From positions 1 through 19,401 of the forward strand of contig MNYV01000054.1 in assembly GCA_001873285.1 (NCBI GenBank): a DNA stretch of 19,401 bases, read 5' to 3'. This DNA comes from Nitrospirae bacterium CG2_30_53_67. GTDB taxonomy: Bacteria; CG2-30-53-67. The position numbers and the translations under genes are program-made. The notes under the pieces were generated by a model that saw only the letters and a program-made list of their open reading frames with translations, ran no database searches and had not been told where the DNA came from. This document shows positions 9,124-19,401 of this stretch, one piece after another. The first letter of the stretch is position 1; each line of letters begins with the position of its first letter.

Positions 9124-11082
9124 GTGTGCGGAATTGCAGGGATTGCGGGGAAAAGTGACCCGGCGTGCGTGGAGAGGATGTGTGATGCCCTTTTTCACCG
9201 AGGCCCGGATGATCAGGGGATCTTTTCAGAAAAGGAGGTCACCCTCGGCATGAGGCGTCTTGCCGTCATTGATTGTCAGGGGGGCCGTCAGCCGATCTCT
9301 AACGAGGATGCATCCGTCTGGATCGTATTCAATGGAGAAATCTATAATTTTCATGAAATACGCTCCGGGCTGGCGCGGCGCGGCCACAAGTTTACGACCT
9401 CATCGGATACCGAGGTCATCGTCCATCTCTATGAAGAATACGGCGAGGAATGTCTCAACCATCTTCGGGGGATGTTTGCCTTTGCCGTCTGGGACAGAGA
9501 AAAAGAGACCCTCTTTCTTGCCAGGGACCGGCTGGGGATCAAGCCTCTATTTTATACCTTTGACGGGAAATGCCTTGTTTTCGCCTCTGAAGTCAGGGCC
9601 CTTCTAAGCGCCGGGATATCCACGGACGGGTTGGATCCTGGGGCTTTGAATGATTTTCTGACCTACCTCTATGTGCCTGCGCCCAAGTCCATGTTCCGTT
9701 CCATCCGAAAGCTTCCTCCGGGCCATACCCTGACGTATTGCAGGGGGAAGATCAGGATCAGGCGGTATTGGAATCTTCATCTGCAGGAGGGTCATTCCCG
9801 TTTAACAGGCCGCCGCGAGGCTGAATACAGGGAAGAGGCGGAATCCCTGCTTCGTGAATCCGTCCGGATGCACCTGGTGAGCGATGTCCCGCTGGGGGCA
9901 TTCCTGAGCGGAGGGATGGACTCCGGAAGCCTTGTGGCCCTGATGTCCGAATATTCCGGCGGGCCGGTCAAGACCTTCTCCATCGGTTACGGCGAGGAGG
10001 ATGCCTCCTATAACGAACTCGATTCAGCGCGCATGACGGCCGATTTCTTCGGCGCCGATCATCACGAATTCATCCTCCAGCCGGACGTGGTGTCTCTGAT
10101 CCCTGAAATCATCCGCGCGATGGGCGAGCCTTTCGCGGACTCATCCGCCATCCCGACCTATCTGATCTCACGGGAGACGAAAAGATACGTGACCGTTGCC
10201 TTGAGCGGGATCGGAGGGGACGAGGTCTTCACCGGGTATCCGAGATACCTGGGCGTCCGGCTCTCAAGGATCTACGATTCGGTTCCCTATTCCGTCAGAA
10301 GGTATCTCTTCTCTCCCCTGGCCGGACGGCTCCCCGAGAGTACACGGAGCAGGAATGTCGCCGGATGGATCAAACGGTTTGTCAGAGGAGGGCTCATGGA
10401 TCCGGTGTCACGGTATCTAAGCTGGATCTCCTTTTTCAGCCCGGAGATGAAAGGGGCCCTGTATTCGGATGACTTCAAGGATCTGCTCGTGAGCTGTGAT
10501 GAGACCGATATCCACAGGACGTTCATGGGTCAGGAGACAAAACTCGATGAGGTGCAGAGGGTATCCTATCTTGATCTGAACACCTACCTTCCTGATGACC
10601 TCCTGTTCATGGGCGACGCCATGAGTATGGCCCATTCCCTGGAACTTCGGGTTCCTTTCTGCGACCATCATCTGATCGAATTCATGATCAATGTCCCGGC
10701 AAAGATCAAGATGAACGGGTGGCATTTAAAGGGAATGCTCAAGTCCATGATGAAAGATGTGCTTCCTCGAGAGATTCTGATGAAGAAGAAACAGGGCTTC
10801 ATGGTGCCGATCGGCGCGTGGTTCAAACGGGACCTGCAGGGGTTCGTACGCGAGACCCTTTTGTCGCAGCAAGCCATGGGAAGAGGGGTCTTTAACGCCG
10901 GTTTTGTTGAACGGATGATCGAAGACCATTTCCAGGGGAGGCAGGTCCTCACCCACCAGATCTGGGCGCTGCTGACTTTTGAGATATGGTGCAGGCTCTT
11001 TATGGACCGGGAGGCATGTCCGGAAAAGGAGTCTGTTATGTGTGGCCCTATTCGTAAATACGATGGCATTCGAGTACCGTAG
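9124..11082 (+). CDS. asnB: asparagine synthetase B-type glutamine-hydrolysing amidotransferase
   Basis: It transfers ammonia from glutamine to an acyl-adenylate, classically making asparagine from aspartate. The 652-residue protein begins at GTG with Cys2 of MCGIAG, the class II glutaminase nucleophile. FNGEIYNF and the HRGPDDQG loop complete the glutaminase domain (about 1-205). The synthetase domain has the PP-loop SGGMDS (262-267). GGAG lies 6 bases before the GTG, and no alternative start keeps Cys2 in place. Its position at the head of a glycosyltransferase cluster resembles AsnB-like amidotransferases of exopolysaccharide clusters, which may amidate a sugar acid rather than aspartate. 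The final residues RKYDGIRVP and the stop appear to run into a palindromic repeat. Confidence 0.92.
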   Translation: MCGIAGIAGKSDPACVERMCDALFHRGPDDQGIFSEKEVTLGMRRLAVIDCQGGRQPISNEDASVWIVFNGEIYNFHEIRSGLARRGHKFTTSSDTEVIVHLYEEYGEECLNHLRGMFAFAVWDREKETLFLARDRLGIKPLFYTFDGKCLVFASEVRALLSAGISTDGLDPGALNDFLTYLYVPAPKSMFRSIRKLPPGHTLTYCRGKIRIRRYWNLHLQEGHSRLTGRREAEYREEAESLLRESVRMHLVSDVPLGAFLSGGMDSGSLVALMSEYSGGPVKTFSIGYGEEDASYNELDSARMTADFFGADHHEFILQPDVVSLIPEIIRAMGEPFADSSAIPTYLISRETKRYVTVALSGIGGDEVFTGYPRYLGVRLSRIYDSVPYSVRRYLFSPLAGRLPESTRSRNVAGWIKRFVRGGLMDPVSRYLSWISFFSPEMKGALYSDDFKDLLVSCDETDIHRTFMGQETKLDEVQRVSYLDLNTYLPDDLLFMGDAMSMAHSLELRVPFCDHHLIEFMINVPAKIKMNGWHLKGMLKSMMKDVLPREILMKKKQGFMVPIGAWFKRDLQGFVRETLLSQQAMGRGVFNAGFVERMIEDHFQGRQVLTHQIWALLTFEIWCRLFMDREACPEKESVMCGPIRKYDGIRVP

Positions 11083-11165: not shown

Positions 11166-11225
11166 ATCCTCTCGATGCTTCATCCTATTTACGAACAGGG
11201 CCACCAAGTCAGACAAGGTAAGGTG

Positions 11226-12332
11226 ATGATGAGAGGCGGCGGATTTCTTCCCAAGAGGATCCTGGTGGTCAAGGCGGCGGGGATCGGTGATCTGATTCTT
11301 GCCGTTCCGGCGCTCAGGGCGCTCCGCGCAAGGTTCCCTGATGCGGCCATTGATCTTCTGGCGACCCCGAAGTGCAAGGATCTCTTAAAGCATTGCCCTT
11401 ATCTGGACGATATCTATGTGATCCGAACCCAGGGCATGGCCAACCGGATCAAGGTCAAGGATCTTTGGGATATTCTCAGCCTGCTCTACCGGTTGAGGAA
11501 AAAACGGTATGACCTGCTGATCAACCTTTATCACCTCTTCTCGGACAGAGGGGCCTTCAGGATGAAGATCCTTTGCAAGGCCATCAAGGCAGGATTGACG
11601 GCCGGAAGAAACACGGACGGCAGGGGAGGATTCTACGATCTTTCGATCTTCGATTCGTGGGATGATCCGTCTTATGAACAAAGGCACGAGGTGGAACTGA
11701 ACCTGGATGTGGTCAACCTGCTGGGAGCTTTTGATCCGGGCGATGGTCCCGAGTTTTTTGTGGATGATCGGGATCGTGCATCTCTGCAAAAGGTTCTGGA
11801 CCGGCAAGGGATTTCATCAGGGGAAGGCCCCTGCATCATCCTGAATATAGGGGGGGATGCCGTGTACAAGCGTTGGCCTGAGGAGGATTTTGCCGTGCTC
11901 GGTGATCTGCTTTCCGAAAGGATTTCCGCAAGGCTCATCCTTGTCGGGGGGGAGGAGGACCGTTTTGTGGCTGATGGCGTCATCACGAAGATGAAAGCAA
12001 GGGCGGCGGATTTGGTGGGGAGACTCCGCATTCCGGAACTTGCGGCATTGATCGAGACCTCTGATCTCATGGTGACCAATGACACGGGCCCCATGCATCT
12101 TGCCGCGGCCCTAAGAATACCCGTGATCGCTCTCTTCGGGCCTGGGAAACCCGGCCGGTATGGACCGTATGGGCCTGAAGGGTTCCATGTGGTCATTCAT
12201 CACCCTGTGTCATGCAGCCCGTGCACGGATTTTACATGCACAGAGCGGGAATGCATGAGAAAGATCCGGCCTGAAGAGGTCTTTCAAAAAATCGTTGAGC
12301 GTCTCGCCTTGAGACAGGAGACATGCCTGTGA
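11226..12332 (+). CDS. glycosyltransferase family 9 (heptosyltransferase-like)
   Basis: GT9 enzymes add heptose or related sugars to lipopolysaccharide core or other glycans from a nucleotide-sugar donor at the inner membrane. The protein (368 residues from ATG 11226) has the N-terminal KRILVVKAAGIGDLILAVPA motif, KRWPEEDFAVLGD, LVGGEEDR, and the donor-site motif NDTGPMHLAAAL near 285, followed by ALFGPGKPGRYGPYG. A cysteine-rich tail has C-x2-C, then C, then C (CSPCTDFTCTERECM), often seen in this family. AAGGTAAGG precedes the start; the frame is open back to 11175, but that extension lacks family similarity. It overlaps the next glycosyltransferase by 10 bases, so the two are probably cotranslated. 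Confidence 0.9.
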   Translation: MMRGGGFLPKRILVVKAAGIGDLILAVPALRALRARFPDAAIDLLATPKCKDLLKHCPYLDDIYVIRTQGMANRIKVKDLWDILSLLYRLRKKRYDLLINLYHLFSDRGAFRMKILCKAIKAGLTAGRNTDGRGGFYDLSIFDSWDDPSYEQRHEVELNLDVVNLLGAFDPGDGPEFFVDDRDRASLQKVLDRQGISSGEGPCIILNIGGDAVYKRWPEEDFAVLGDLLSERISARLILVGGEEDRFVADGVITKMKARAADLVGRLRIPELAALIETSDLMVTNDTGPMHLAAALRIPVIALFGPGKPGRYGPYGPEGFHVVIHHPVSCSPCTDFTCTERECMRKIRPEEVFQKIVERLALRQETCL

Positions 12333-13480
12333 AGAGAATCAGGGTCCTTCATGTCCATACCCTCCCCGTGGTGAGCGGCTCCGGGATCAATACCTACCTG
12401 ACCATGAAGGGGATTCCCGTTGATCGTTTTGAATCGGCCCTGGCTTGCGCCCCAGGAGGAAAGTTGAACGAGATCGTGCGGGAGGCCGGGATGAAGGTCC
12501 ATGAAGTACGAAACCTGGTCCAGCCGATTCACCCGCTGAAGGACGTCCTTGCGCTCTTTGAGATCATCAGGATCCTCAGACGGGAGAAGATCGACATCGT
12601 CCATACCCACAACTCCAAGGCAGGCTTCCTCGGAAGATTGGCGGGAAGGCTCGCAGGGACGCCGGTTATCATCCACACGGTGCATGGGTTTGCCTTTCAC
12701 CAGTCAGAGTTCTTTCTGCGCCGCACGATCTTCAGGCTTCTGGAGAGACTGGCTGCTCCCTGGGCGGATCATACGATCTTTATTTCCCAGCCCATGATTG
12801 ACTGGGCCGGGAAGGAAGGGATCCTGAGAGGGGCATCGTATTCGAAAATCTACAGCGGGATTGACCTGAATGCGTTTCATGGATACGGGAAAAAGGAACA
12901 AGGGAGTCTCAGGGAGGAACTCGGACTTGACAAAAAGAGCCGCGTCATCGGGTTTGTCTCGAAACTCTGGGAAGGGAAGGGGCATGACGTCGCGCTTTCC
13001 GCCATGGCCCATGTGGTGAAAGAGATACCGGATGCCAAGCTTCTTCTGGTAGGAGAAGGCCCCCTCAGGCCGAAACTTGAGGAACTGAGCAGGAATCTAA
13101 GGATTGAGAGTTCTGTGGTCTTCGCGGGATTCCGGACGAAGATTGCAGAGATCACCTCTTTATGCGAACTTTGTATCCTCCCCTCGTTTTTTGAAGGGAT
13201 GGGCCGCGTCCTCCTCGAGGCCGGCGCCTGCGGCAAGCCGGTTGTCGCGTCCAATGTGGGAGGGATTCCCGATGTGGTTGTGGAGGGCGTCACCGGATTG
13301 CTTGTTCCGCCGGGAGATCCGGCCGCCCTGTCCGATGCCGTGCTCAGGTTGATGCGGGAGCCGAAATTAATCATAAAGATGGGCGAGGCCGCGAGGAAAA
13401 GAATCAACGAGAAATACGACGCCGGGACCATGGTCAGAGAAATCACGGCGTTGTATGATGTCTATCTTAAAATTTGTTAG
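12323..13480 (+). CDS. glycosyltransferase family 4 (GT-B fold)
   Basis: A retaining GT-B glycosyltransferase of 385 residues. The N-terminal lobe carries VLHVHTLPVVSGSGINTYLT and the acceptor-side motif DIVHTHNSKAGFLGR (91-105). The C-terminal lobe has GFVSKLWEGKGHD, LLVGEGPL and the donor-binding E-x7-E pattern, E291 and E299, in FFEGMGRVLLEAGACGKP, then VGGIPDVV and GLLVPPGD. There is no membrane segment, so it should be cytoplasmic or peripheral. Its start overlaps the GT9 stop by 10 bases and has GGAG upstream. The donor and acceptor sugars cannot be read from sequence. It probably extends the lipid-linked glycan begun by the downstream transferase. Confidence 0.92.
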   Translation: MPVKRIRVLHVHTLPVVSGSGINTYLTMKGIPVDRFESALACAPGGKLNEIVREAGMKVHEVRNLVQPIHPLKDVLALFEIIRILRREKIDIVHTHNSKAGFLGRLAGRLAGTPVIIHTVHGFAFHQSEFFLRRTIFRLLERLAAPWADHTIFISQPMIDWAGKEGILRGASYSKIYSGIDLNAFHGYGKKEQGSLREELGLDKKSRVIGFVSKLWEGKGHDVALSAMAHVVKEIPDAKLLLVGEGPLRPKLEELSRNLRIESSVVFAGFRTKIAEITSLCELCILPSFFEGMGRVLLEAGACGKPVVASNVGGIPDVVVEGVTGLLVPPGDPAALSDAVLRLMREPKLIIKMGEAARKRINEKYDAGTMVREITALYDVYLKIC

Positions 13481-13500: not shown

Positions 13501-13586
13501 CCCCCCTTTGGAAAAAGGGGGTTAGGGGGGATTTTTTCACATGCACGACCAGAAATCCCCCTCCATTCCCCTTTTGCAAAGGGGGA
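13501..13586. repeat. CCCCCTTT/AAAGGGGG palindromic repeat pair
   Basis: A left arm (13501-13534) and right arm (13552-13586) are inverted copies with about 27 of 35 positions matching, separated by about 17 bases. Each arm is itself nearly palindromic, with CCCCCTTT facing AAAGGGGG around a short centre, so several hairpins are possible. From memory, similar repeats are scattered in intergenic regions of Desulfobacterota- and Nitrospirota-type genomes. It occupies most of the 137-base gap between the GT4 gene and the next cistron. It may attenuate transcription or be inert. Confidence 0.7.
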
Positions 13587-13617: not shown

Positions 13618-15153
13618 ATGGATTCACCGGCATTTTATTCGGTCCTCTTTATTTCCTCCCTCCTGCTCTGCTGGATTCTGACACCCCTTGCAGGACGCCT
13701 GGCCCTCAGGCTGGGATGTGTGGACCGGCCCGGCGGGAGGAAGATCCACTCCAGAAATATTCCTTACTTCGGGGGGATCGCCGTCTTCGTTTCTTTTCTG
13801 ACGGTCTTCATGGCGGTCTATTATTATTACATTCCCAGTATCTCCATTGAGGGGCGCAGGGTCATGTTCGGTTTTGTTTTCGGCGGAGGCCTGATCCTGA
13901 TCACCGGCCTGATCGACGATATCCGTTCAGTCCGTCCCAGCGTGAAACTCATGGGGCAGGCCGCTGCAGGGGTCATCCTTGCCGTCCTGGGCTTCCGGAT
14001 CGAGGTCTTGACCAATCCATTCGGCGGAGAGATCCATTTTGGCGCAATCATGGGCGGGATTCTCACGGTGATCTGGGTCGTGAGCATGGTCAATGCCATG
14101 AATCTCATTGATGGTCTGGACGGCCTGGCCTCAGGCATTGCCTTCATTGTCTCCGTGACGCTTTTTGCCGTGGCCATCAATCGGAACGATCCCATGGACA
14201 TGGTCATCACGGCCATCCTGGCCGGGAGTTGTCTGGGGTTTCTTCACCACAATTTTTTCCCTGCCCGGATTTTTCTCGGCGACGCGGGGAGCATGTTCCT
14301 CGGCTTTGTTCTGTCGGTCATCGGTATCCACGGCATACAAAAGAGCGCGACGGTCATGGCGCTCCTGATTCCCCTTTCCGCACTGGCGGTGCCGGTGCTC
14401 GACACCCTGATGGCCTTGATCCGGCGGAGCAGGGTCAGGCGGGATCTCTTCTCGGCCGATCACGAACATCTGCACCACCGGCTGGTCAGGCTCGGCATCA
14501 GTGAGAAGAACGTGGTGCTCCTGATCTATTTTTTCTGCATCCATCTCGGGATTACGGCGTTTGTCCTGACCCTGATCCCTGTGGATTACACGCTGATCAT
14601 CCTTCTCCTGATCGCCATGGGGATCATGCTCGGGATCAAGACCCTCGCATTTATTGAAGAGAAGATGGCCATCCGCCTGCGTGAATCGGAAAAAGAATCC
14701 ATGCTTGACGAAGAGACCGGCCTCAGCAGCTACCGGTATTTTACCCGCAGGGTCATCGAGGAGATCAACAGCTGTGATCGTTATGACAAGCGGAAGTTCT
14801 CGCTCCTGATCTTTGAGATCAAAGGGCTCATTTCTTTCTTGGATCCATTCAAGAAGATCGAGGAAAGGCGTAAACGCTTCCGGTCTGTGGGGCGGTTCTT
14901 TCAGGAGAATATCCGGTCCAGCGATCTGGTTTCCTTTCTTGGAAACGAATCCTTCGTGATCCTGACCCCGGAGCAAGGAGAGGGCAAGGATTACCTGGTC
15001 GAACGGTTGAAGACGATCTTTGAAAACATGAGGGCCGATCTCTTCGGCCCCCTGTCGGAGCAAAAGGTCGAGCTGAAGATCCGTGCAGTTGATTATCCGG
15101 GGAACCAGGGGCTTGTTCAGGATCTCCTACGCGATGCCATGGAGGTCTCATGA
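13618..15153 (+). CDS. WecA/TagO-like polyprenyl-phosphate sugar-1-P transferase fused to a degenerate GGDEF domain
   Basis: The first ~345 residues are a multi-pass PNPT-family enzyme that loads a sugar-1-phosphate from a UDP-sugar onto undecaprenyl phosphate, the first step of glycan synthesis. Its motifs are DDIRSVRPSVKLMGQ (D100/D101), NLIDGLDGLA (162-171), FLGDAGSMFLG (219-229) and DHEHLHHRL (281-289). After the last membrane helix, residues 361-511 resemble a diguanylate cyclase domain: DEETGLSSYRYF opening (364-375), FSLLIFEIKG core strand and RSSDLVSFLGNESFVIL (433-449). GGDEF has become GNESF and the metal/substrate residues are lost, so cyclase activity is unlikely. RxxD (433-436), five residues before, is the position of the c-di-GMP inhibitory site. 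The next gene overlaps by ATGA. The fusion is unusual; ordinary WecA/TagO ends near residue 350. Confidence 0.88.
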   Translation: MDSPAFYSVLFISSLLLCWILTPLAGRLALRLGCVDRPGGRKIHSRNIPYFGGIAVFVSFLTVFMAVYYYYIPSISIEGRRVMFGFVFGGGLILITGLIDDIRSVRPSVKLMGQAAAGVILAVLGFRIEVLTNPFGGEIHFGAIMGGILTVIWVVSMVNAMNLIDGLDGLASGIAFIVSVTLFAVAINRNDPMDMVITAILAGSCLGFLHHNFFPARIFLGDAGSMFLGFVLSVIGIHGIQKSATVMALLIPLSALAVPVLDTLMALIRRSRVRRDLFSADHEHLHHRLVRLGISEKNVVLLIYFFCIHLGITAFVLTLIPVDYTLIILLLIAMGIMLGIKTLAFIEEKMAIRLRESEKESMLDEETGLSSYRYFTRRVIEEINSCDRYDKRKFSLLIFEIKGLISFLDPFKKIEERRKRFRSVGRFFQENIRSSDLVSFLGNESFVILTPEQGEGKDYLVERLKTIFENMRADLFGPLSEQKVELKIRAVDYPGNQGLVQDLLRDAMEVS

Positions 15154-16643
15154 AGGGATGCATGATCCGGGTTATTTTCCTTTTGTGCGCGGCGCTTTGG
15201 ATCATGACTCCATGCCGATCAGCCCATGCCGAGGGCTTTCTACCCCTGACCGGCGCCGTGCATGTCCATTCCTCGGATTTCAGCAGCGGGGACCATACCC
15301 TTTCCGATCTGGTCGACATGGCCAGGAAACGCGGGCTGGACGTGATCGTTCTGACCGACCATGATCGCATCGCCTTGTCCTATGGGATCCCCCCCTTCCG
15401 TCATCTGCTATCCTTGGGCTTTTCACGGAACTCTGTCCTGAAGCGGGGGGCGCGTCAATATCTTGATGCGGTCAACAAGCTCAATGCCGAGAACCCGGAC
15501 ATGATTTTAATACCGGGGATCGAATCCGCCCCGTTTTATTACTGGACCGGATCCATCTTCAAGGGGAACCTGACGGTCCACGGGTTGAGAAAACATATCC
15601 ATGTGATCGGGCTGACCAACCCTGATGACATTGAACATCTCCCCATTCTCGAAAGCGGGTTCTCGACCCGGTATGTCATGAAACTCCTTCCCCGGTTCCT
15701 TCTATTCTTCGGGATCATTCTCTTGAGCCTGGTCCTGATCACCTGGAAGGGAATCTACAAAACTGCCGGGCGGATTTTACTCCTTCTCGGCGTCCTGGGA
15801 GCGTTGAATGCCCACCCGTTCAAGAGTTCACTCTTCGATCCTTACCATGGGAATCAGGGGGCAGCCCCATTCCAGGAGGTCATTGATTATGCGGATGCGC
15901 ACGGCGGCATGACCTTCTGGGCCCATCCGGAAGCGAACTACGGGGTCACCGAAACCGGGCCCGACAAAAAAATCCTAAGATTCAAAATCCCCAGAGTTTT
16001 TATGCAAACAGAAAAGTATGCGTCGGATCTCATCACAACCCATGGTTATACCGGATTCGAATCCCTCTACGGGGATACGATCCATGCAACGGAGCCGGGC
16101 AAGGAATGGGACCAGGCGTTGATCCGATACTGTGATGGGGGAAGAAAAAAACCGGTCTGGGGGCTCTGCGGCCTGGACTTCCACAAGCAGGGGCAGAACT
16201 CGTGGTCCTATCTGGACAGGGGAGAGACCGTGTTCTGGGTTCAGGAAAAGACCTGTGAACAAGTCCTGAACGCCATGCGCAATGGAAGGATGTATGCCGT
16301 GTATCAGGGGGGGGATTCCAAAATCCGCCTGAATTCATTTTCACTGGCCTCTCAAGACGGGGAAAGCGAGATTTCCGGAGGGACCGTGGAAACCCGCGGA
16401 GAATCACTGAATCTTCATCTTAGCGTAAACTTCAGTGATGCGGCTCAGGTCCCCGTCCGGATCGAGATCATCGATTCCGGAAAGACCCTCTACACCCTCG
16501 AAGGGAAGACCCCTCTCAATGTGATACAGGATATTACACCGAGCAGGGCCAAAGGATATGTCCGTGCCGTAGTCCGGGCGGACAAGTACCGGATCGTCGC
16601 CAATCCGATCTTCTACAAGGATCCCACAAAGTTGACCCCTTGA
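15150..16643 (+). CDS. membrane-anchored PHP-domain metal-dependent phosphoesterase-like protein
   Basis: PHP domains bind two or three metals and hydrolyse phosphoesters. The 497-residue protein starts with a signal-like hydrophobic stretch (about 6-22) and a candidate cleavage after AHA (27). Metal-ligand motifs follow: HVHSS (38-42), TDHD (69-72), GIES (E125), HIH (149-151), WAHP (H259) and GLDFH (D343/H345). Between the two halves of the fold lies a hydrophobic hairpin at about 183-220 (RFLLFFGIILLSLVLITW and RILLLLGVLGALNA), predicted to cross the membrane twice. Residues about 390-497 look like a β-rich accessory domain. The start overlaps the preceding transferase stop by ATGA. It may act on a glycan or lipid phosphate at the periplasmic face; substrate unknown. 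The last residues KLTP and the stop run into an octamer repeat. Confidence 0.82.
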   Translation: MKGCMIRVIFLLCAALWIMTPCRSAHAEGFLPLTGAVHVHSSDFSSGDHTLSDLVDMARKRGLDVIVLTDHDRIALSYGIPPFRHLLSLGFSRNSVLKRGARQYLDAVNKLNAENPDMILIPGIESAPFYYWTGSIFKGNLTVHGLRKHIHVIGLTNPDDIEHLPILESGFSTRYVMKLLPRFLLFFGIILLSLVLITWKGIYKTAGRILLLLGVLGALNAHPFKSSLFDPYHGNQGAAPFQEVIDYADAHGGMTFWAHPEANYGVTETGPDKKILRFKIPRVFMQTEKYASDLITTHGYTGFESLYGDTIHATEPGKEWDQALIRYCDGGRKKPVWGLCGLDFHKQGQNSWSYLDRGETVFWVQEKTCEQVLNAMRNGRMYAVYQGGDSKIRLNSFSLASQDGESEISGGTVETRGESLNLHLSVNFSDAAQVPVRIEIIDSGKTLYTLEGKTPLNVIQDITPSRAKGYVRAVVRADKYRIVANPIFYKDPTKLTP

Positions 16644-18296: not shown

Positions 18297-18479
18297 ATGA
18301 CCCGACCATTAAGAATACAGTATCCCGGAGCGGTCTATCATGTGACCTGCAGAGGGAATGAGAGGCGAAAGATATACCATGATGATACGGACAGAATAAA
18401 GTTTCTTGAAATCCTTGCGCAGACAAAAGGGATCTATACCGTCAAGATTCACGGTTACGTCCTCATGAGCAACCATTTC
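18297..18479 (+). pseudogene. IS200-like (Y1, REP-associated) transposase, 5' fragment
   Basis: The first 61 codons read MTRPLRIQYPGAVYHVTCRG and continue to GYVLMSNHF. This is the N-terminus of the Y1/REP-associated tyrosine transposase family. Intact members continue NHFHLL with the HUH metal-binding histidines and a catalytic tyrosine later. Here the sequence breaks right after NHF at about 18478 and changes to an IS91 transposase. The second HUH histidine and the nucleophilic tyrosine are therefore missing, and the fragment cannot act as a transposase. The frame continues across the junction to TAG 18972-18974, giving a 225-residue chimeric ORF. Confidence 0.88.
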
Positions 18480-19401
18480 TGCCCCTCCTGTCACGCAAAA
18501 AAGGTGATTGAGTTCGGGGGCCGTCTTGGCCAGTCCATTCTTTATCCGGTGCCTCACCGCCAATATGTCTTCACCGTTCCGATACTGCTCCGTGTCTACT
18601 TCAAGTATGATCGGCGACTTCTCAGCAAACTCTGCCGATCCGCCTACGAGAGCCTGCTCATTTTTCTACGCACCACTCTCAAGCTTCCCCATGGCATCCC
18701 TGGGTGCATCATGACCATCCAAACCTTTGGAGAATATCCGGACCGCTTCCATCCCCACCTTCATGCATTGGTCTCGGACGAGCTTTTTAAGCGGGCCGGC
18801 ACTTTTTATGTGATGCCCAAAGTTGATCTCAAATTTCTGGAGGAGATTTTCCGTGCTAAGGTCTTGGGCATGCTGAAGGCAGAGGGAAAGATCGGAGATG
18901 AGACGATCCGCAAGCTCTTGATCTGGCGTCATTTAGGTTTCAATGTTCACAATGGCGTGCGGATCAGAAGGTAGGATGCGGAGGGACGGGAGCGGCTCTC
19001 CCGGTATATTCTTCGAAACACCTTTTCGGTAGAGAAGATGAGCTATGCGGAAGAGACAGGTCATGTCATCTACCAGTCCAAAATGACGCATGGAAAGAAC
19101 AAAAAGAACTTCGAGGTCTATGAGGCCACGGCGTTTATTGCCGCCATTACGCAACACATTCCGCAGAAATCATTCCAGATGGTCCGGTATTACGGATGGT
19201 ATTCCAACCGATCCAGAGGTATGCGATTGAAACAGGGTATTCAGAGACCGGGGGATGAGACTCCAGAATCCGACCAGGCCTTCGAGATCATTGATGTAAC
19301 GGAGCATGAGGTAAGGAAGATCCCCTCAAAGACATGGCGGGACTGTATCAAAAAGATCTACGAGGTGGATCCGCTATCTTGCCCGAACTGCGGCGGAGAG
19401 A
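18480..19401 (+). pseudogene. IS91-family transposase, N-terminally truncated with internal stop, runs off window
   Basis: From CPSCHAKK (about 18480) the frame matches IS91/ISCR transposases: PVPHRQYVFTVPILLRVYF, IQTFGEYPDRFHPHLHALVS with the HUH histidines (codon for the first at 18750), and LIWRHLGFNVHNGVRI. A TAG at 18972-18974 interrupts it. The same frame continues as DAEGRERLSRYILRNTFSVE, then QMVRYYGWYSNRSRG (YY at 19188-19193, the catalytic tyrosine region) and CPNCGGE at the window edge. About 75 N-terminal residues, including the first part of the zinc-binding domain, are missing. Because the post-stop sequence stays conserved and in frame, the stop looks recent. Not expected to be active unless the stop is suppressed. 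Confidence 0.9.

Follow-up and report, generated by a model that had tools for sequence, protein, structure and literature searches.

Receptors for c-di-GMP of the PelD and PopA type, in which a GGDEF domain is catalytically dead, are already known. PelD, a membrane-bound component of polysaccharide synthesis, has at its C-terminus a cytoplasmic, degenerate GGDEF domain, of which residues R367, D370 and R402 are needed to bind c-di-GMP and to drive Pel synthesis (PMC2170427; PMC8461298). A GGDEF-type or GGDEF-like domain with an RxxD-type site also acts as the receptor in PopA, whose output is that of a cell-cycle localisation factor (PMC12564702), in the cellulose co-factor BcsE (PMC10519070; PMC8461298) and, reportedly, in the histidine kinase SgmT (PMC3509222). 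The active cyclases WspR, PleD and DgcR carry RxxD five residues before GGDEF as an I-site for feedback inhibition, and in WspR c-di-GMP is held by R242 and R198, the latter coming from the partner domain (PMC2270323). Among pathways of polysaccharide synthesis, control by c-di-GMP is known for the synthase-dependent ones, and post-translational control of those of the Wzx/Wzy type is incompletely understood (PMC12802240, 2025). Direct post-translational control of a glycan-starting enzyme is represented by EpsZ-EpsW of Myxococcus xanthus, where it probably operates via dimer stability; EpsZ is a monotopic phosphoglycosyl transferase under a separate phosphorylated receiver protein, and neither c-di-GMP nor a fusion is involved (PMC12802240).

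The window analysed here, the whole stretch of 19,401 nucleotides, comes from a 2.36-Mb metagenome-assembled genome and encodes a polytopic phosphoglycosyl transferase (PNPT) that ends in a degenerate GGDEF domain. The parts of this protein are as follows, where invariance refers to six aligned domains, five from fusions and one from a paralogue.

13618..15153, + strand: PNPT-GGDEF fusion protein of 511 amino acids, one open reading frame with orthologues in relatives
13618..14652, + strand: PNPT (WecA/MraY-type) phosphoglycosyl transferase part, residues 1-345
14653..14700, + strand: linker, residues 346-361, predicted from secondary structure, with low confidence, to be helical and to run unbroken from the last membrane segment
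14698..15141, + strand: degenerate GGDEF domain, residues 361-508
14779..14781, + strand: R388, by alignment the equivalent of WspR R198, the I-site arginine that is supplied to the partner domain; the same in 6/6
14815..14841, + strand: former DxDxFKxxN segment, by alignment to WspR now E400 I K402 G L404 I405 S F L408 (ExKxLIxxL)
14914..14925, + strand: RSSD (R433, D436), residues 433-436, the primary I-site motif, whose R and D are the same in 6/6
14941..14955, + strand: GNESF, residues 442-446, replacing GGDEF/GGEEF, from the sequence and comparison with relatives
15004..15006, + strand: R463, in the place of the third I-site arginine (at position 273 in WspR; R402 in PelD by PMC8461298); the same in 6/6

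The original prediction, made from the sequence alone, was of a complete PNPT enzyme followed by an extension of the GGDEF pattern, and profile searches bore out both parts. The enzyme part matches PF00953 at residues 84-238 (E 4e-38; 131.3 bits against a cut-off of 27), contains all catalytic motifs at the expected places (DD at 100-101, NLIDGLDGLA at 162-171, FLGDAGS at 219-225 and HEHLHHR at 282-288) and has about 11 membrane segments as predicted by hydropathy. In these respects it is like PNPTs of the WecA/TagO type; typical members of that group end shortly past the last membrane segment, whereas the fusion extends on. Its score with the WecA model TIGR02380 (126.2 bits, E 1.6e-36) lies far below the cut-off of 326. 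As the catalytic loops are cytoplasmic and the eleventh segment crosses back, the C-terminus is expected on the cytoplasmic, catalytic side. The predicted linker helix spans residues 322-361 in the full-length AF2 model (pLDDT about 40-70) and appears as helix 2-20 in the model of the domain. The full-length model has a mean pLDDT of 52 and its membrane part is too poor for the GGDEF domain to be placed on the active site.

The extension matches PF00990 at residues 362-507, with 31.9 bits in the whole protein (E 1.4e-7) and 36.9 bits for the domain alone (E 4e-9), both above the curated cut-off of 23.8, and a PDB profile search returned DgcR as the nearest solved sequence (E 6e-10). An AF2 model of residues 342-511, based on five family sequences, reached a mean pLDDT of 79.5 and aligned with solved GGDEF domains at Z scores of up to 14.0, with 106 of 1000 chains at Z >= 8 (VIA-align). 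Foldseek matched the same model to PleD, WspR, GcbC and DgcR, and the structure matches include PleD, GcbC, DgcB and DgcR in their c-di-GMP-bound form. Judged by these profiles and the model, the GGDEF match of residues 361-508 is genuine and not a product of chance. The domain resembles that of PelD in being degenerate, C-terminal and cytoplasmic on a membrane protein of a polysaccharide system, and in carrying a further arginine, PelD R402 lying 35 residues after the first arginine of RxxD and R463 lying 30 after. Unlike the fusion, PelD has no enzymatic part; it contains a GAF domain and serves as a partner protein in a synthase-dependent system. The domain described here sits on an enzyme starting a lipid-linked pathway, and no GAF match was found in the fusion protein with Pfam profiles. 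Where PelD is recognised by four N-terminal membrane helices, GAF and degenerate GGDEF domains and a pel operon, the fusion has its eleven or so segments and PNPT motifs, with no pel genes among the scanned neighbours.

The predicted loss of catalysis holds for most of the residues concerned. In the alignment with WspR, from which the numbering derives, E400, K402, L404, I405, L408 and R417 occupy the positions of cyclase D, D, F, K, N and D, respectively. Across the family, all fusions have S at the fourth GGDEF position, L has replaced the guanine-site N, the place of the second guanine-site D is taken by R, E or Q, and the K is lost; 3 to 5 of 8 catalytic and substrate positions are kept in the fusions and 2 of 8 in the stand-alone paralogue. 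Because the fourth E, the guanine-site N and D, and the K are gone, the domain is predicted to have lost catalysis, and the marks of an active diguanylate cyclase (GG[DE]EF, DxDxFKxxN and the second guanine-site D) are absent from its sequence, with a score below the cut-off of the cyclase model TIGR00254. In this it differs from WspR, PleD and DgcR, with which it otherwise shares the fold, the position of RxxD and the partner arginine. The further statement that the metal residues were gone was too strong, as E444 still stands at the third GGDEF position in all relatives and the metal-binding position is E or D across the family, still D in two relatives. These two positions would be compatible with a domain that still handles GTP, either by weak cyclase activity or by sensing GTP at the former active site; activity is reported for certain degenerate domains, such as VCA0965 with its AGDEF (PMC3974145). 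Given the replacements listed above, most A-site contacts are gone, and we consider such handling of GTP improbable.

The I-site presents the opposite picture. RSSD lies exactly five residues ahead of GNESF, as had been predicted and as in the I-site of cyclases, and R433 and D436 align with WspR R242 and D245, while R463 occupies a site that we take to be that of PleD R390. All four predicted I-site residues (R388, R433, D436 and R463) are kept, and the features by which a degenerate GGDEF receptor would be recognised in sequence, namely a lost catalytic motif, RxxD five residues ahead, and R463 and R388, are present in each of the six domains.

The same intact fusion was found in all five family genomes that have a complete copy (G000, G001, G003, G004 and G005), at 64-84% identity, while in G002 the gene is cut by the contig end. 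G005 additionally encodes, directly downstream of its fusion gene and ahead of a PHP hydrolase gene, a stand-alone copy of 228 amino acids that consists of the last two membrane segments and the GGDEF domain (L043 3561-4247; 38-39% identical). This paralogue, a partial tandem duplication found only in G005, has DDERF where the fusion has GNESF, the first G being lost, and has kept RVAD. Conservation of RxxD, on which the original prediction had been staked, thereby extends over five fusions and one paralogue, and all four I-site residues are unchanged in these six domains down to 39% identity. They are among 42 invariant columns of approximately 170 in the six-domain alignment; the simple chance of four specified columns all being invariant is about 0.3%, a figure that ignores the general conservation of GGDEF domains. 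The codons differ between species, being CGT, CGA, CGC and CGG for R388 and CGG, AGA, CGT and CGC for R463. The GGDEF domain is under purifying selection, with dN/dS of about 0.1-0.14: between G000 and G001 the value is about 0.12 for the GGDEF part and 0.16 for the PNPT part, and between G003 and G005 about 0.10 for each. It could be argued that what remains is the decaying, functionless vestige of a past gene fusion, given that the domain scores 34.8 bits as compared to 100-178 for canonical GGDEF domains. Since every complete copy in the family encodes the whole domain in frame, under constraint nearly as close as that on the enzyme part, this explanation is already disfavoured and we regard it as very improbable indeed.

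RxxD as a sign of a receptor carries less weight than the original prediction implied, intact as the motif is and accompanied by the invariant R463 and R388. In a comparison set of 78 further GGDEF domains from this class, which is weighted to low-scoring domains so that the class-wide rate may be higher, RxxD stands at the same spacing in 65 (83%), comprising 41 of 44 canonical domains and 24 of 34 others. It is also kept in 12 of 13 other severely degenerate domains (those that retain no more than half of the catalytic positions), and 51 of the 78 (65%) carry the full set of four I-site residues. RxxD is thus the default of the class and its presence alone is weak evidence of a receptor; as sole proof it was rejected after this count. 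What weight it bears comes from its having stayed while the active site went and the sequence diverged, in a fold that does not need it: RxxD is dispensable for the fold because receiver-linked GGDDF proteins of the class have lost it.

These counts bear directly on the main competing explanation, that the GGDEF domain is a structural module which binds no nucleotide and which pairs transferase subunits or docks a partner, be it a glycosyltransferase or a real diguanylate cyclase. Retention of RxxD could on this account be a matter of descent or of structure, the I-site residues persisting by inheritance or as salt bridges, and the status of the motif as class default, together with its persistence in other degenerate lineages, is in keeping with that, as is the fact that dimerisation is natural to GGDEF domains. 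Other PNPTs, moreover, have unrelated C-terminal domains at the same place, so that a module there need not sense c-di-GMP. The invariance of all four I-site residues in six sequences of such divergence, including the stand-alone copy, argues against it, as does the independence of the fold from RxxD in the class members with GGDDF. We regard a purely structural role as possible, with odds well below even.

Several further GGDEF proteins were noted in the course of this comparison. L144 826-1758 (G000 contig 44) is a receiver-GGDEF protein with GGDDF and no RxxD, a mirror image of the fusion, and has counterparts in several genomes of the class. L142 1117-3447 (G000 contig 111) encodes a protein of 776 amino acids, GAF-rich by eye, with GPxKF and REYD, and L143 1496-3676 (G000 contig 36) one of 726 amino acids with GEDRF and RQID and, by eye, an HD-GYP-like end. 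RxxD is kept in both; they represent two more degenerate GGDEF lineages, each recurrent across genera of the class, and are candidate c-di-GMP receptors.

The distribution of the fusion was determined with a contig scan using the extension, which returned only three close relatives, and with a profile of the catalytic end plus the GGDEF domain. At E 1e-22 the profile matched approximately 145 PNPTs in 386 genomes, and outside the family no open frame reaching the GGDEF part was found among them, apart from a few cases in which the match crosses stop codons downstream of the PNPT. A further 597 genomes (sets of 4, 195 and 398) yielded none at the stricter thresholds of 1e-42 and 1e-36, at which a divergent fusion could escape. 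As searches of about 980 other genomes, with narrower sensitivity for about 600 of them, revealed no PNPT-GGDEF, the fusion is taken to be an invention of this lineage, and the fusion appears confined to one small candidate phylum of uncultured bacteria. Other C-terminal cytoplasmic extensions are frequent on PNPTs of other lineages (seen in L020, L071, L074, L075, L017 and L027/L029), and one of them is weakly GAF-like, while that of a sister family is yet another. The variety of these domains indicates that a cytoplasmic module was added to PNPTs repeatedly, and suggests that there may be a wider set of regulated initiating transferases.

The fusion gene lies within a cluster with the conserved order asnB, GT9, GT4, PNPT-GGDEF and PHP hydrolase, in which the neighbours of the fusion are:

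9124..11082, + strand: asparagine-synthase-like amidotransferase with a relationship to the EPS amidotransferase of XrtA/PEP-CTERM systems (TIGR03108, E 1e-181, 605.7 bits against a cut-off of 816.9)
11175..12332, + strand: GT9 heptosyltransferase-like glycosyltransferase (profile match)
12323..13480, + strand: glycosyltransferase of family GT4, a relative of the stp2 found in XrtA systems (below the cut-off of TIGR03088, E 2.6e-56)
15150..16643, + strand: PHP-type CehA/McbA-like metallohydrolase (NF038032, E 1.2e-21, just below cut-off), which also follows the fusion in relatives

The start of the hydrolase gene overlaps the stop of the fusion gene by 4 bases. As judged by gene position and length, and for G004 also by sequence, the order of GT4, fusion and hydrolase recurs in G001, G003 and G004, and in G005 with the paralogue in between; in G001 and G003 an asnB-sized gene precedes it. 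For two of the neighbours the XrtA/PEP-CTERM models TIGR03108 and TIGR03088 are the best matches, both below cut-off; an exosortase is encoded on another contig of the genome, and three monotopic transferases elsewhere. Genome-wide, 13 GGDEF domains, several of them canonical, and 5 PilZ domains were counted, by which the genome is equipped for c-di-GMP signalling. The original prediction had also placed the fusion in a flagellar and chemotaxis setting. Chemotaxis and sigma-28 genes do lie upstream of it in the window, and none were found upstream of the fusion in the same-genus G001 (L041), where holA and glgC take that place, or in G003, which has further glycosyltransferases there; the link was therefore rejected as peculiar to this genome. 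Two other elements of the window deserve mention. A 33-nt imperfect inverted repeat (13502-13585) is located in the 137-bp gap ahead of the fusion gene, and since the GT4 has a shorter C-terminus than its relatives, wanting their last residues, a palindromic element may have been inserted here. The open reading frame at 18297-18974 starts, by eye, like a REP-type (Y1) transposase and its end matches an IS91 transposase below cut-off, and it is probably a remnant or a join of two elements.

Taken as a receptor, the protein would be an initiating phosphoglycosyl transferase carrying its own sensor for c-di-GMP, and of the known systems it would resemble PelD most in its way of working. The PNPT part would move a sugar-1-phosphate onto undecaprenyl phosphate, and the cytoplasmic GGDEF domain, having lost c-di-GMP synthesis, would have kept its allosteric I-site in full. 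Two such domains in a homodimer would hold an intercalated c-di-GMP dimer, bound by R433, D436 and R463 of one domain and by R388 of its partner, and the domains so clamped would alter transferase activity by way of the helix that extends the last membrane segment. We infer that this clamping of paired GGDEF domains, and the regulation of the transferase by it, is the likeliest mechanism, at a probability of roughly 0.5. The poor full-length model leaves the sign and route of the coupling unconstrained; high c-di-GMP usually goes with matrix production, a link that activation would fit. The broader proposition, that c-di-GMP acts directly, via a built-in I-site domain, on the enzyme committing undecaprenyl phosphate to a lipid-linked surface glycan, is a tentative one to which we give a little less than even odds. 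As a single soluble domain is concerned, the idea is easy to test.

In agreement with the original prediction, which knew of no described PNPT-GGDEF receptor, a description of a PNPT or other phosphoglycosyl transferase with a GGDEF domain was not found in the literature searched, a body that leaves most subscription journals outside, and the word undecaprenyl is absent from two reviews on effectors of c-di-GMP and from one on how c-di-GMP controls exopolysaccharides. It is the joining of such a dead GGDEF domain to a PNPT enzyme that appears to be new. How entry of the shared lipid carrier into competing bacterial glycan pathways is controlled is largely an open question. If our reading is true, this protein would be, to our knowledge, the first polytopic phosphoglycosyl transferase under the control of a second messenger, and c-di-GMP would be linked to the first step of glycan synthesis without a transcription factor or a partner protein.
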